A stretch of DNA of 23,874 bases. It comes from a virus. Where the stretch lies: IMG/VR virus record IMGVR_UViG_3300020141_000051, positions 1 to 23,874 of that record. One strand, written 5' to 3'. The position numbers and the translations under genes were made by a program. Positions 5,765-21,590 of the stretch are shown in pieces. Under the pieces are notes generated by a model that saw only the letters and a list, made by a program, of their open reading frames with translations, did no database searches and had not been told where the DNA came from. The stretch's first letter is position 1. Each line of letters begins with the position of its first letter.

Positions 5765-6535
5765 TTATTTTCTTACCGTTTTGTTATAGTCAATTGCGTG
5801 ATCTAAAATACTTACTGGTGTATTTAGGTCGCCGGCATATTTACTAAATGCTTTTGTGTCTTTAGGAAAGCAATGCCCTCCAAAACCTCTTTCTCCATCC
5901 ACTCCTGGAACCAATGTATGGCTAGTTCCGATACGCGAATCGTGTGTTAGTACTTGCCTAACAACACTATAATCAGCACCACTCTTTTCGCAAATATCGT
6001 ATATTTGATTAAAGAACGCTACTTTCAGCGCCAGGAATGAATTACTTACGTATTTGATTGTTGCCGCTTCTGTAATACTACAGTTGAAGAACATCCTACA
6101 CTTGGGCAATACACTGGCAAATAGATCCTGCCAAAAACACTCAGGATCTTCTCCACCAATCACCATATAGGTTTGATTTAAAAAATCTTGATTGGCAGTC
6201 GCACCTCTTAAGAATTCCGGACTATGGCAAATGCTATGTTCCGAGAATTCCTTCTCCAAATCTTCAAACAAATCTGGAGTCATAGTAGACTTGATTAAAA
6301 CTGGTAAGAATATAGGAATCTCTCCCATAACTGCTCTTACATTAGAATTATCACACCGCCCGCTAAAAGCGGTACTAGGTGTATCAACGCAAACAATAAC
6401 TCCGTCTGCATCGTGATGATCTATCATTTTATAATCTGTATACTTAGGATCTTGTATTACAATTTCATGTTTTGTTTTTAAGGCATTGGCAACTGCCTTG
6501 CCTACAAAACCATAACCAATAATAACTATTTTCAT
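5765..6535 (-). CDS. UDP-glucose/GDP-mannose 6-dehydrogenase-like protein, C-terminally short
   Basis: A 256-aa NAD-dependent nucleotide-sugar dehydrogenase. Visible motifs: GYGFVG (7-12) for NAD binding, STMTPDL (83-89), HSPEFLRGA (104-112), EAATIKYVSNSFLALK (156-171) in the central helix, and the catalytic cysteine C222 in FGGHCFPKD. Complete family members are about 390-450 aa with a C-terminal NDP-sugar-binding domain. This one stops at about residue 256, soon after the catalytic motif, so that domain is missing. Either the enzyme is a minimal phage form or it needs a partner. It follows DNA polymerase with only TAATATG between them and likely shares its transcript. The exact substrate is unknown. 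Confidence 0.85.
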   Translation of the reverse strand: MKIVIIGYGFVGKAVANALKTKHEIVIQDPKYTDYKMIDHHDADGVIVCVDTPSTAFSGRCDNSNVRAVMGEIPIFLPVLIKSTMTPDLFEDLEKEFSEHSICHSPEFLRGATANQDFLNQTYMVIGGEDPECFWQDLFASVLPKCRMFFNCSITEAATIKYVSNSFLALKVAFFNQIYDICEKSGADYSVVRQVLTHDSRIGTSHTLVPGVDGERGFGGHCFPKDTKAFSKYAGDLNTPVSILDHAIDYNKTVRK

Positions 6536-6536
6536 A

Positions 6537-9203
6537 TTAGAACTCGAATAAACTGTTAAATGTATTTTTCTCTTCTGTACTACTGATATTCCAGTTTAGA
6601 ACGCCGATTAAGTTTTCTAACTTCTTATCAATGATAGTAGCCTCCATTTCTGAGTGATTAAATGGCAAGTCTTTAAACCATTGTGGCAATCGCAATTCGT
6701 CTACTGGATACGCAACACTGGCATATTCTAGTGGATTAGCCTTGAGCTTACAAACAATAACTTTAGCACCGTCTGTAATGTTGGCACTATACTTGTCATC
6801 GAACATACGTTTTAATGTGTTCCAGTTGATACTAGCACGAACGTGTCCGGGCATGTTAGTCTTGCCAGCTTTCTTTTCTTTATCTTGATAGTCTGTAATA
6901 TTGTTAGCACGTTTAGGGCTACCTTTCTCCCAACCTGGTCTAGCCTTAAAACGAATACGAAATTCGCTAATAAAATCTAGCACGTCTTGTTCGGTGGCTC
7001 CTGTTAAGACCTTTTCAAGTACATCACTTAAAAAGTCTTGAATAAATTCCGGCGTATCACTACGCTTCAAATCCAAGCCCATGGCTTTGATCTTACCAGG
7101 TTTACCATCTACGTCTGCTCGTTTGCCTTCCTTATCATAGTATAGCACCGCATAACGTTTTTTAGTAATAAACAAACTTTTACTGCCAACAATTTCTCGA
7201 CCTGCTTTAATGACTTCACCACGTGACTTTGGACAGTGGAATGTATCCAACATAAACTGTGGGAAAGTATCATTTACTTCTTCGGCAATTTGATCATATA
7301 GTTGAACTACACTCTCTTTTGTCCAAGGAATAAGACCCTTGTCAATGTCTTTCTTTAGTGTAGTATATGCTGAGAAGTAACAGGAGTCTGTGTCACCGTA
7401 GATAATTGCCTTGCCGCGGTAATCGTACTCTCCGCAAACAATTTCATTTACCTTCCCAGCCATATGCTTGACAATCTGACGCCCAGTAAGAGTTGTAGAT
7501 TGGCCGATACGTTTATCAAAAAAGCGACACCCAGAATTAAGAATGGCGCCATATAGCGAGTTAAGGTTAATTTTCTTAACCAACTGTCTCTTGTCCCAAT
7601 ACTCTTCTTCAATTTTGTTACCAGCATTGATAGCCTCCTTTAGTTTGGCCTGCATCTCTTTACGTTCGCTGTACCAGCGTTTTAGTAGCCCTGGAATAAT
7701 ACCTTCTTTCTCGTAGGTAAAGATAGTACCATTAGCACTAAGTACCCAAGGTTGATTACTTTCAAAAATAAGTCTGTATACTTCTGCCGCTGACAGAATA
7801 TCACTAGATCCATCTTCCCAGTCGATAGTAATGTCCGTGCCAATTTGCTGTTCCATTACGGCTGTATACTCTAAGCTACCGAACACACCCTCCCAAGAAG
7901 CCGCGAATGATTTACCTTTGGCCATTTGTGCTTCAATAAACTCTTCAGTTTGTGTTTGACGCAACTGTCCAACAATAGTCTCTGGGCCCATGTTAAGCGC
8001 ACGAATAGCACTTGGGTACAGACTGTTAATGTCTAGTGATCCAATCCAATCGTGAATGCCTTCTTTAGGATAGGCAACATAAGCACCTGCCGCTTGACTG
8101 TCTTCGCGTTCGTCCATTTTAGTACGGTTAGGTACTTGGAATCCTCTGCGGTGTGCTTCGTTAATAATAGCCTGTTCAGTTACCGCTACAGCACCCATTG
8201 TAGTCTGTAGCAATACAGTACATTCGTGTGCCAAGGTGTTAGCAAGGTCGATAAACTTTAACTTCTTGTCCAGTTTTTCAAGAAGCATACAGTCGTTGAT
8301 GTTGTATTCAACGAATGTTTTAAAGTCATTGTTGTATAGTTGATCCAATGTACCTTCGTACTGTGTCTTACGCTCGCCTAGTTCGTATTCGGCAATAGCG
8401 TCTAGTCGATAGGTATGCCGTTCTTCATATGTATACTTTCGATACAGTTCCAAACTATCTAAGTGTACACGACCTACAAAGTCATAAGTTGTAGCCAGTC
8501 GTCCAAACTTTTCGTACTCACGTTTCTTTGGCAGTTGATTAAACAAACAGAAGCGTCTTGTATCATCTTTGCTTAGAACTTTAGTAACACGATTAACAGT
8601 ATACGGGACGTCGAAGCCTTCACTGTTCCAGCCGCTGATAACATCTGCGTCTTGTATTAGGTCCAGGAACATGTCCAACATATCTGCTTCGTTGTCAAAC
8701 AAATATGTGTTGGGAAATTCTTTAACCATTTCCTTAGCTTCTTCCATCTTAAGACCTTTGGGAGGAAGTGCTAGGCAAACCATTGTTTGCATCCATTGTA
8801 GGTAGACAGCAATCGCAGTAATTGGCATAAACGCATCGTCTGGGCTAGCATAGCCACGTTCTGGATCAAAGTCTACCTCAATGTCATAAAACGCTACGTT
8901 TAGTTTAGGAGCATCTTGATTAAGATAGTTTTCACTAAGTGTGACAAAGATTGGATTAATATCGCTTTCAAATAATTGCTTACCTGAATTGATAGCTTGT
9001 TCTTTGCGTAGTTCTTTTGTGTTCTTACATACAATACGTGTTACGGCATCACCGTAAATTGATTGATGTTTGCCCTTAGGGTCTTTAACGTAAAACGTAT
9101 GTTTTACGGGTATGTCGCGAAATTCTCTTTCGCCTTTTTTATTACGTTCGACCACTTTGATAACATCGTTCTCGCGGTCAAACCATGCGTCTACATAGCT
9201 CAA
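6537..9203 (-). CDS. 43: Family-B DNA polymerase (T4 gp43-like)
   Basis: An 888-aa replicative polymerase, close to T4 gp43 length. The proofreading exonuclease motifs are intact: FYDIEVDF (D107, E109), GWNSEGFD (191-198) and YNINDC (Y300, D304). The polymerase motifs are intact: DINSLYPS (391-398), KKINLNSLYG (543-552), YGDTDS (602-607) and KKRYA (681-685). The last residues TFNSLFEF match the acidic-hydrophobic C-terminal clamp-binding peptide known from T4/RB69 polymerases. The start is TTG at 9203: AGGAG lies seven bases upstream, and the product then begins MSYVDAWF as expected. A non-ATG start plus upstream hairpins suggests that synthesis is limited at translation. Confidence 0.95.
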   Translation of the reverse strand: MSYVDAWFDRENDVIKVVERNKKGEREFRDIPVKHTFYVKDPKGKHQSIYGDAVTRIVCKNTKELRKEQAINSGKQLFESDINPIFVTLSENYLNQDAPKLNVAFYDIEVDFDPERGYASPDDAFMPITAIAVYLQWMQTMVCLALPPKGLKMEEAKEMVKEFPNTYLFDNEADMLDMFLDLIQDADVISGWNSEGFDVPYTVNRVTKVLSKDDTRRFCLFNQLPKKREYEKFGRLATTYDFVGRVHLDSLELYRKYTYEERHTYRLDAIAEYELGERKTQYEGTLDQLYNNDFKTFVEYNINDCMLLEKLDKKLKFIDLANTLAHECTVLLQTTMGAVAVTEQAIINEAHRRGFQVPNRTKMDEREDSQAAGAYVAYPKEGIHDWIGSLDINSLYPSAIRALNMGPETIVGQLRQTQTEEFIEAQMAKGKSFAASWEGVFGSLEYTAVMEQQIGTDITIDWEDGSSDILSAAEVYRLIFESNQPWVLSANGTIFTYEKEGIIPGLLKRWYSERKEMQAKLKEAINAGNKIEEEYWDKRQLVKKINLNSLYGAILNSGCRFFDKRIGQSTTLTGRQIVKHMAGKVNEIVCGEYDYRGKAIIYGDTDSCYFSAYTTLKKDIDKGLIPWTKESVVQLYDQIAEEVNDTFPQFMLDTFHCPKSRGEVIKAGREIVGSKSLFITKKRYAVLYYDKEGKRADVDGKPGKIKAMGLDLKRSDTPEFIQDFLSDVLEKVLTGATEQDVLDFISEFRIRFKARPGWEKGSPKRANNITDYQDKEKKAGKTNMPGHVRASINWNTLKRMFDDKYSANITDGAKVIVCKLKANPLEYASVAYPVDELRLPQWFKDLPFNHSEMEATIIDKKLENLIGVLNWNISSTEEKNTFNSLFEF

Positions 9204-9217
9204 ATTTTATCTCCTAT

Positions 9218-9262
9218 GTCATTTATGGCTGACAAATACCTCTGTAGTCACTTGTGGCTGAC
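9218..9262 (-). promoter_or_regulatory. Tandem 8-nt-loop hairpins before the polymerase ribosome site; candidate gp43-type translational operator
   Basis: Two near-identical elements 29 bases apart in the polymerase mRNA leader. The first (9262-9247) has loop GCCACAAG, closed by GTCA/TGAC and extended by flanking bases to TAGTCA/TGACTA. The second (9233-9218) has loop GCCATAAA and stem TGTCA/TGACA. The fifth stem pair changes from A-U to U-A between copies, a compensatory change. The second hairpin ends two bases before AGGAG of the polymerase. In T4, gp43 represses its own translation by binding an 8-nt-loop hairpin next to its ribosome site. Same layout seen here; the binding partner is inferred. 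Confidence 0.65.
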
Positions 9263-9270
9263 TAAACCTT

Positions 9271-9299
9271 ATTATACTATACTTATCGCTAAAGAGCAA
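9271..9299 (-). promoter_or_regulatory. Sigma70-type promoter of the DNA polymerase gene
   Basis: Minus-strand TTGCTC (9299-9294), a 17-base spacer and TATAAT (9276-9271). The -10 is perfect and the -35 partial. A transcript would start near 9264 and so carry both hairpins in its leader. It lies in the gap after the SGNH-hydrolase gene, the only sizeable gap near the polymerase. Confidence 0.7.
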
Positions 9300-19319: not shown

Positions 19320-21590
19320 TTAGTTGTCTTCTGTAACATCTTCAGTCTTGTTTTCGATAGATAGCAGTGGAACTTTAACTGTCTTACCCCTAGCATTTAA
19401 TACTAGTTTATCTTTATCAGTAGTAATAGTTAACCATCCACCAGCCTTTAAATCGCCAAACAACATCATCTTAGCAAGGTCGCGTTTGATTTCCTTGTCA
19501 ATTACACGTTGTAACGGACGAGCACCCATCTTAGGATCAAATCCCTTTTCAATTAACCATTCAATAGCATCTTTGTTAGCTTTGATACGAATGCCTTTCT
19601 CCTTAACTTGTTCACGGAGTTCATCCATAAACTTGTTAACAATTTTAATCATTGTATCTTTACCTAGCTTGTTAAACGTAATAACACCGTCTAACCGATT
19701 GCGGAACTCCGGTGTGAGGAACTTCTTCAAATCGGTGTCGCTGTAGTCTTTATCCTGTGCTCCAAAACCAATTGCGTTCTTTTCAGCACTTTGAGCGCCA
19801 GCATTAGTAGTAAGAATAAGAACTAGTTGACGGCAGTCTGCTTTCTTGCCATTGGAACCAGTAATGAAACCGTTATCCATAAGTTGTAGCAACACAGTCA
19901 TAACATCTGGATGAGCTTTCTCAACTTCGTCTAACAATAAGACAGCATTAGGTGCTTCCTGGATACCAGTAATTAATTGACCAGCATTCTCTTCAAAGCC
20001 AACATAACCTGGAGGGCTACCAATTAGCTTACTGATACTGTGCTTTTCTTGATACTCACTCATATCAAAGCGTAGTAGTTTAGTACCCAAGTGCTTGGCC
20101 AGTGCCTTAGCGGTTTCAGTTTTACCTGTACCAGTCGGCCCCATGAATACAAAGCTACCAATCGGTTTGTTCTCAGACTTCAACCCAGCTTGTGCTACTA
20201 GAATTTTATCAACAATCTCTGTGATAGCCATTTCTTGTCCATAAACTTCTGAATGAAGTTTTTCGTCCAGCGTTGCCAAATTAGCACTTTCTGTTTCAGC
20301 TACTTGTTCAGCCGGAATATTAATCATCTTAGCAAGTTCAAATTGAATTTCTTGCTCAGTTATAATACGATCATCCGCCAGCTTTAAATTAAAACGTGAA
20401 CAGGCAACATCGATTAAGTCGATTGCTTTATCTGGCAATTTCTTATCAGCTTGATATTTGACTGATAGTTTAATAGCGGCCTGTAAGGCATCATCTTTAA
20501 TTTTAACGTTGTGAAATCCTTCGTAGTATTTCTTAATACCTTTAAGGATTTGAAGAGTCATCTCTTGAGTTGGCTCGTCAACTGTGATGCGTTGGAAACG
20601 ACGCATCAACGCACGATCCTTTTCAAAGTGTTTACGGTATTCTTCCCATGTGGTACTAGCAATAACTTTAACATTGCCTTTACTCAGTGCTGGCTTCATC
20701 ATGTTAGCAAGATCGTTAGCACTATTGCCTGCCGAACCTGCGCCAGAGATCATGTGTGCTTCATCGATAAACAAGACAGTCTTACCTTTCTTAGTAAGAG
20801 CTTTAAGCACCATTTTGAAACGTTCTTCAAAGTCACCGCGATACTTACTGCCCGCAAGCATAGCACTAATGTCGAGATTGTAAACTGTGTATTCTTTTAA
20901 AAATTCTGGTACTGCGCCTTTAACAATATTAAAAGCAAGTCCTTCTGCGATAGCAGTTTTACCTACACCTGGATCTCCTACAAGGATAACGTTATTTTTA
21001 CTACGACGACCTAGTGCCAAACTAATATTTTCTAGTTCGTCGATGCGTCCAATTACAGGATCAATTTTGTTCTTTTTAACAGCTTCGTTGAGGTTGGTTG
21101 TAAATGATGCCAAGGCCTTTGCGCTACTAGAATCGTGAACTTCTTCTTCAACTTCTTCTATACTGCTATCCAAGTAGCCAGCAAATTTATCTTTATCAAT
21201 ATTTGCCTGTTGAATATAAAAATTAGCCCACGAGCGTTTTTCGCTCATCATAGCAAGGAATACATCTGTAGGTTCTATGCGTTGCCTGCCGTTAAACAAC
21301 ACTTGAGTAAATGCTTTGTTGAGAACACGCTCTACACTTTGTGTCTTTTTTGGCTTAACTACTACATCTTGAACAGTAATTTCAGAGCATTTTTCTGCCA
21401 GATACTCCGTGAGATTCTTACGTAGACTGTCTACATCGGCACCATAACCTTGTACTGTCTTGCTAAATGTATCTTCAGTTAGCATTGCAAACAATAAATG
21501 TTCAATAGTAAGATATTCGTGGTGTAATTTTTTAGCAGTATCAATTGCTTTTTCAAAAACTGCTTGTAGATTGTCGCTTGGTTCTACCAT
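19320..21590 (-). CDS. clpA: ClpA-type AAA+ unfoldase
   Basis: A 756-aa protein, matching the length of bacterial ClpA (about 758). An N-domain (1-140) is followed by two AAA+ modules. D1 has Walker A GDPGVGKT (205-212) and Walker B LFIDEAH (273-279). D2 has Walker A GPTGTGKT (484-491), Walker B LLLDEVEKAH (551-560) and sensor-2 GARPLQR (689-695). The long middle coiled coil of ClpB is absent. At 607-609 the loop reads IGF in KNAIGFG, the position and kind of the ClpP-docking loop of ClpA/ClpX. It therefore should feed substrates to host ClpP. No clpP or clpS is seen nearby. AAGGA and a promoter precede the ATG, so it is its own transcription start. Confidence 0.95.
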   Translation of the reverse strand: MVEPSDNLQAVFEKAIDTAKKLHHEYLTIEHLLFAMLTEDTFSKTVQGYGADVDSLRKNLTEYLAEKCSEITVQDVVVKPKKTQSVERVLNKAFTQVLFNGRQRIEPTDVFLAMMSEKRSWANFYIQQANIDKDKFAGYLDSSIEEVEEEVHDSSSAKALASFTTNLNEAVKKNKIDPVIGRIDELENISLALGRRSKNNVILVGDPGVGKTAIAEGLAFNIVKGAVPEFLKEYTVYNLDISAMLAGSKYRGDFEERFKMVLKALTKKGKTVLFIDEAHMISGAGSAGNSANDLANMMKPALSKGNVKVIASTTWEEYRKHFEKDRALMRRFQRITVDEPTQEMTLQILKGIKKYYEGFHNVKIKDDALQAAIKLSVKYQADKKLPDKAIDLIDVACSRFNLKLADDRIITEQEIQFELAKMINIPAEQVAETESANLATLDEKLHSEVYGQEMAITEIVDKILVAQAGLKSENKPIGSFVFMGPTGTGKTETAKALAKHLGTKLLRFDMSEYQEKHSISKLIGSPPGYVGFEENAGQLITGIQEAPNAVLLLDEVEKAHPDVMTVLLQLMDNGFITGSNGKKADCRQLVLILTTNAGAQSAEKNAIGFGAQDKDYSDTDLKKFLTPEFRNRLDGVITFNKLGKDTMIKIVNKFMDELREQVKEKGIRIKANKDAIEWLIEKGFDPKMGARPLQRVIDKEIKRDLAKMMLFGDLKAGGWLTITTDKDKLVLNARGKTVKVPLLSIENKTEDVTEDN

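Follow-up and report, generated by a model that had tools for sequence, protein, structure and literature searches.

Tandem hairpins before the ribosome site of a gp43-type phage DNA polymerase gene: a candidate duplicated RNA operator

Known polymerase operators and the leader of the window

The T4 DNA polymerase gp43 regulates its own synthesis, a classic case from which SELEX arose, and to our knowledge the natural gp43 operators described so far are few. Other T4 replication functions are also repressed at their mRNAs. RegA acts at the ribosome sites of replication genes, where its sites are unstructured and occur in many mRNAs, and the replication protein of gene 32 represses itself through a leader pseudoknot and A+U-rich repeats.

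Both T4 and RB69 gp43 are autogenous repressors acting through a hairpin of 16-18 nt near their own ribosome site (18 nt in T4, 16 nt in RB69), the gene 43 operator of RB49 has a loop with -UAAA-, with the 3' AA of the loop relevant for binding, and some T4-related gp43s do not autoregulate (PMC3014915). The T4 leader, as read in NC_000866, contains a single hairpin, AGCCU(AAUAACUC)GGGCU.

We analyzed a stretch of 23,874 bases of the virus record IMGVR_UViG_3300020141_000051 (the window), whose minus strand encodes a DNA polymerase of 888 aa (6537..9203) with a TTG start codon at 9201-9203. This ORF matched PHROG 262 (E=3.9e-200), the Pfam DNA_pol_B and exonuclease domains, and the RB69 gp43 chains over residues 23-835 (E=3e-59). 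Judged by these profile matches, the product is a full-length gp43 homologue of family B, and we propose the gene both as the regulated gene and as the source of its repressor. The closest cultured relatives of the polymerase are 42-50% identical (best 49.5%), and no relative was found in bacterial genome contigs. When 601 bp including the leader were searched as DNA, no match was returned among annotated phage records, which can be explained by the lack of a close cultured member in the clade. Elsewhere on the minus strand of the window, we observed a UDP-glucose dehydrogenase-like ORF (5765-6535) that may be a shortened and altered version of the enzyme, matching the NAD-binding domain from profile position 75 onwards and stopping after the central domain, and a phage-encoded ClpA/ClpB-like double-AAA ATPase (19320-21590; PHROG 4871, E=5e-249).

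The leader of the polymerase gene lies on the minus strand and reads GGUU-UAGUCA(GCCACAAG)UGACUA-CAGA-GGUAUU-UGUCA(GCCAUAAA)UGACA-U-AGGAG-AUAAAAU-UUG. The initial annotation had pointed to two tandem hairpins with 8-nt loops at the polymerase start, and these are real on both sequence and comparative evidence. Hairpin 1, the putative upstream operator unit (9245..9264, minus strand), is UAGUCA(GCCACAAG)UGACUA, 20 nt long with a 6-bp stem, an 8-nt loop (GCCACAAG, 9251-9258) and a folding energy of -5.2 kcal/mol when folded alone. Hairpin 2, the putative ribosome-site-proximal unit (9217..9234, minus strand), is UGUCA(GCCAUAAA)UGACA, 18 nt long with a 5-bp stem, an 8-nt loop (GCCAUAAA, 9222-9229) and -4.0 kcal/mol when folded alone. 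The stems originally listed, AGTCA/TGACT and TGTCA/TGACA, do pair, and hairpin 1 has a sixth pair that had escaped the list. The outer pair swaps from A-U to U-A between the two stems as described, and the reported distance of 29 bases between the elements corresponds to the 29 nt from loop to loop. A single-stranded GGU (9266..9268, minus strand), conserved in the leader alignment and in further leaders, flanks hairpin 1 on its 5' side, and a second GGU (9238..9240, minus strand) lies within the GGUAUUUG flank 5' of hairpin 2. The Shine-Dalgarno AGGAG (9211..9215, minus strand), which in related phages is overlapped by the hairpin 2 stem, begins one base 3' of hairpin 2 when the full 5-bp stem is counted, correcting the gap of two bases first given.

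From the window alone, the case for the hairpins is modest. The whole leader has an unremarkable folding stability (z = -0.15), and because of this single-sequence value folding energy was left out as evidence. When a pattern made from both hairpins was searched in the window with up to 3 mismatches allowed, it matched nowhere but at these two (0.59 matches expected), and at least 2 matches occurred in 12 of 100 shuffles. The comparative evidence presented below is decisive.

Compared with the other T4 systems, the leader shares with RegA targets the ribosome site of a phage replication gene (repression being proposed here), but it is structured and found at one gene. It shares with gene 32 a structure in the leader of a replication protein, for which autorepression is again proposed here, but consists of tandem hairpins instead of a pseudoknot and concerns a different protein. 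The closest likeness is to the gene 43 operators of T4 and RB69, as a short hairpin, with an 8-nt loop as in T4, stands immediately before the ribosome site of a homologous polymerase gene of family B. It differs from them in the loop, which is GCCNNAAN here and of the AAUAACUC type with a -UAAC- core in T4/RB69, in a conserved GGY 5' flank, in the tandem units found in one clade and in a second loop that is relaxed. The remark that the loop is unlike that of T4 was borne out by the reading of NC_000866, and we found no convincing similarity between GCCNNAAN and AAUAACUC beyond a UAA present in many copies. Many loops here (GCCAUAAA) share the -UAAA- core of RB49, a comparison of a short string alone that may be chance, and the element differs from RB49 in being tandem, as PMC3014915 describes no tandem for the RB49 gene 43 operator.

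Of the parallel with the T4 operator that the initial annotation had drawn, the 8-nt-loop hairpins beside the ribosome site of a homologue of gp43 hold up; their loop sequence is independent and homology to the T4 RNA is unsupported. The element resembles a gp43 operator and is not classifiable as the T4 RNA operator, given its different loop and copy number and a polymerase binding that is predicted. With the curated gathering score, Rfam 15 gave no match in the window, the leader or 15 related loci. A SAM_alpha match, which appeared when the leader was searched at E up to 10, lies on the other strand and is due to chance. In the open literature, we found no paper on tandem gp43-type operators or on jumbo-phage leader RNAs.

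Conservation and covariation of the two hairpins

A protein search of viral contigs gave 80 relatives with polymerases 84-90% identical to that of the window; here and below the relatives are metagenome viral contigs whose host is not identified, and the counts include related sequences. Considering these 80 loci together with the window, two hairpins with GCC-headed loops were present in 79 leaders. As for the remaining ones, the first hairpin of L022 is masked by N, and both hairpins of L015 are located further upstream. RNAalifold, run on 59 distinct leaders with no structure supplied, returned exactly the two hairpins. In this set the covariation score was 0.359 versus 0.124 +/- 0.010 for shuffled alignments and at most 0.111 for slid ones, and hairpin 1 showed double changes at all 6 pairs. 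The variable inner (middle) pairs of hairpin 2 were CG/UA/AU/UG and AU/CG/GC, with 99% of the cells paired. The GCC and AA of the loop were invariant in aligned leaders, loops measured 8 nt (rarely 9) and stems 3-7 bp.

A null based on phylogeny gave the same picture. We used a polymerase tree for 215 leaders, pre-filtered for GCC..AA and at least 3 pairs, and replayed the changes of each column independently on it, in only 60 replicates. The top five of 1540 column pairs were predicted stem pairs, with scores of 435, 299, 268, 170 and 154, all above the maximum of 143 reached by the tree null. Because this set was pre-filtered, an unbiased count was made on loci selected by polymerase similarity alone. 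Results showed that GCCNNAA was present at -48..-8 in 122 of 164 non-identical leaders, compared with 0-11 for six control windows taken from these loci, and that 119 of these 122 had at least 3 flanking pairs. In a similar unfiltered count, the first three pairs were Watson-Crick in 115-117 of 120 leaders, with a few G-U, and all 120 had GGU or GGC on the 5' side of the loop at a distance of 3-16 nt. The two hairpins are conserved, covarying RNA structures at the ribosome site of the polymerase. A leader alignment with a covariation test had been proposed at the outset, with lack of conservation as the refuting outcome, and both loops and pairing are conserved in the relatives.

A link to one gene and its changes across the clade

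We also searched viral contigs with the DNA pattern of hairpin 2, using no polymerase information. This blind search returned at least 119 loci; among the matches listed, 117 of 119 had a polymerase start downstream, and the polymerases were 71-90% identical in most of those tabulated. The match at L091, with no stem and no polymerase, was discarded as chance. Moreover, 12 contigs of 107-372 kb were scanned with covariance models of the tandem (R1) and of one unit (R2), whose E-values are rough. Strong matches were confined to the polymerase leader in 11 of the 12 contigs, and a contig that has lost the operator (L209) gave no strong match to either model anywhere. The one exception, a strong single-hairpin match at G002:144709, is in antisense orientation within a glycosyltransferase-like ORF and was attributed to chance. 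In Vibrio phage 2.275.O, the one-hairpin model gave matches that were set aside, being weak and far from its polymerase. The closest cultured relatives, with polymerases 42-50% identical, have no such element at their polymerase. The element is essentially unique to the polymerase gene.

The arrangement of the tandem is nearly fixed. In 166 of 168 tandems the loops are 28-30 nt apart (full range 27-31) despite a fast-changing sequence between the two hairpins, and the 3' end of hairpin 2 mostly lies 8-16 nt before the start codon. The loop of hairpin 1 is GCCAUAA or GCCACAA in 72/81, as is the loop of the single operators of relatives in 36/42; in the tandem hairpin 2, positions 4-5 are free and 14 different loop cores were found.

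Relatives with polymerases ~63-70% identical to that of the window often carry one unit, which adjoins or overlaps the Shine-Dalgarno, with the 3' stem arm inside the ribosome site (ACCGGCCAUAAACGGAG) in some of them, and a single unit is also found at two polymerases of ~54% identity (L273, L331). The polymerase tree places every tandem in a single clade (support 0.98), where 158 of the 196 sequences have the tandem, and its sister clade has single units or none. As sister and relative polymerases carry the single form and the tandems make one clade, the single unit beside the ribosome site (the hairpin 2 position) was probably the ancestral state, from which the tandem arose. The initial annotation was right in speaking of a duplicated form and too narrow in giving it to this phage, the tandem being the rule across the whole clade.

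Two features further upstream were noticed in these leaders. The motif ATAARTA occurs at a preferred distance, 17-26 nt upstream of the GG of hairpin 1, in 85 of 168 tandem leaders; it lies at ~9278-9285 (minus strand) in the window and resembles the -10 of T4 late promoters (TATAAATA), and from its position the transcript may start just before hairpin 1. In addition, single-operator leaders (L292, L293, L299, L303, L306, L322, L326, L338, L215-L221) have a different hairpin ~13 nt upstream (GUUCCCGUAAGGAAC, GCUCACGUUACGAGC, GUUGCCUUAAGCAAC) with compensated stems, followed by CAUG.

Losses of the operator are frequent, as seen in L207-L209, L214, L223 and L241 of the clade. In other members genes have been inserted between operator and polymerase, namely Cys-rich ORFs of 45-57 aa (L098, L106, L107, L123, L231, L235, L246, L309, L328), ORFs of ~205 aa (204-207 aa) that look oxygenase-like by eye (L179, L262, L270) and ORFs of 232-240 aa (L265, L272). 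When the insertion has the same direction, the operator stays ahead of the new first gene and the stop of the inserted gene often overlaps the polymerase start, an arrangement that looks like operon control by the leader operator combined with translational coupling. In L015 and L287, an antisense ORF of 247 aa splits the operator from the polymerase, which starts behind a new ribosome site. As some members have lost the operator and these two have it separated, leader control does not appear to be essential. The 247-aa ORF of L015 (2229-2972, minus strand), with a counterpart in L287, has the paired-cysteine motifs GCPKC and GCPxCW and looks endonuclease-like by eye, and a copy of the first codons of the polymerase remains behind the operator of L287. 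The polymerase match spans 3.5-4.1 kb instead of ~2.7 kb in L246, L275, L276 and L287, which suggests an intein, an intron or an inserted domain.

Proposed autorepression and the alternatives

Considering the sequence comparisons and the analogy with gp43, the leader is likely to be a two-site RNA operator for translational autorepression by the phage DNA polymerase. Invariant loop bases, stems that merely pair and an adjacent ribosome site argue for a loop-reading protein that blocks initiation, and the strict link to one gene together with the gp43 precedent makes the polymerase the most likely ligand. We infer, then, that the polymerase acts as the ligand and represses translation, with cooperation between the two sites; the graded or cooperative control that the initial annotation had suggested may be one outcome of the tandem. 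Each unit would be a short GGY-flanked hairpin whose stem need only pair and whose 8-nt loop GCCNNAAN would provide the specificity. Polymerase not engaged on DNA would bind the loops, and a filled hairpin 2, which abuts the Shine-Dalgarno here and overlaps it in relatives, would keep the 30S subunit off. Hairpin 1, 27-31 nt upstream and with the presumed ancestral loop GCCA(U/C)AA, would attract polymerase to hairpin 2, with its loop relaxed at positions 4-5, or make its binding there more stable. Points against this reading are the lack of a convincing likeness to the T4 loop, the closest cultured relatives without the element at their polymerase, the T4-related gp43s that do not autoregulate, and the lost or separated operators in some members of the clade.

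The operator could also be read by a different protein, either another phage repressor or a host RNA-binding protein. Covariation and loop conservation imply a specific ligand and leave it unnamed, and RegA, which represses replication genes of T4, offers a precedent (PMC3014915). We consider this reading improbable. The RegA profile (PF01818) found the family in 0 of 12 related contigs, which are possibly incomplete, and detected it in the T4 control (E=2.3e-75). More targets would be expected of a general regulator, and the strong matches are polymerase-only in 11 of the 12 contigs; in addition, the operator stays with the polymerase though the upstream genes differ.

It is very unlikely that the inverted repeats work as double-stranded DNA, as tandem operators for a dimeric transcription factor. 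GTCA-N8-TGAC is indeed a short inverted repeat, palindromic DNA sites also show compensated changes, and an AT-rich promoter-like sequence lies just upstream. However, the 8-nt centre is asymmetric and keeps a constant orientation relative to the gene, the half-sites of the stem take many sequences, which a DNA-reading dimer could not tolerate, and G-U pairs are present. Moreover, the stem merges with the Shine-Dalgarno in relatives, the scan of 12 contigs gave no dispersed copies, and a promoter scan found no sigma-70 promoter here on the minus strand.

Equally slight is the chance that the hairpins are a structural element with no ligand, such as mRNA-stabilising 5' hairpins, an RNA thermometer or a processing site, possibly favouring expression. 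Their place at the head of the leader, maybe near the 5' end of the transcript, would fit such a role, but the invariant GCC and AA of the loop, the likewise invariant GG 5' flank and the near-fixed spacing of 28-30 nt would not be needed for it, stems of 3-6 bp are weak, and a hairpin beside or overlapping the ribosome site speaks against enhancement. Finally, a chance or functionless repeat, for which the weak statistics of the single window (z = -0.15) might speak, is already refuted by the comparative data, as the loop is correctly placed in 122/164 polymerase-selected leaders against 0-11 in controls and the covariation holds after tree correction.

Within autorepression by the polymerase, the two hairpins might have divided roles, a possibility that we put forward tentatively. 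The upstream hairpin, with its strictly conserved loop GCCA(U/C)AA, would be a high-affinity sensing site and the downstream one, free at loop positions 4-5, a low-affinity blocking site, to which a second polymerase would bind cooperatively at the fixed distance of 27-31 nt. If true, synthesis of the polymerase would shut off steeply in dependence on its concentration, through an RNA code unrelated to that of T4.

The element is common to a large group of uncultured large phages, and the candidate duplicated operator is most likely new. It represents an RNA family missing from Rfam, and its pattern alone is a marker for polymerase leaders in viral metagenomes. The clade offers a few hundred natural candidate operators paired with their polymerases, in single, tandem, lost, taken over and broken forms, and this natural variety makes the loop code, the role of the duplication and the RNA-reading surface of the polymerase directly testable.
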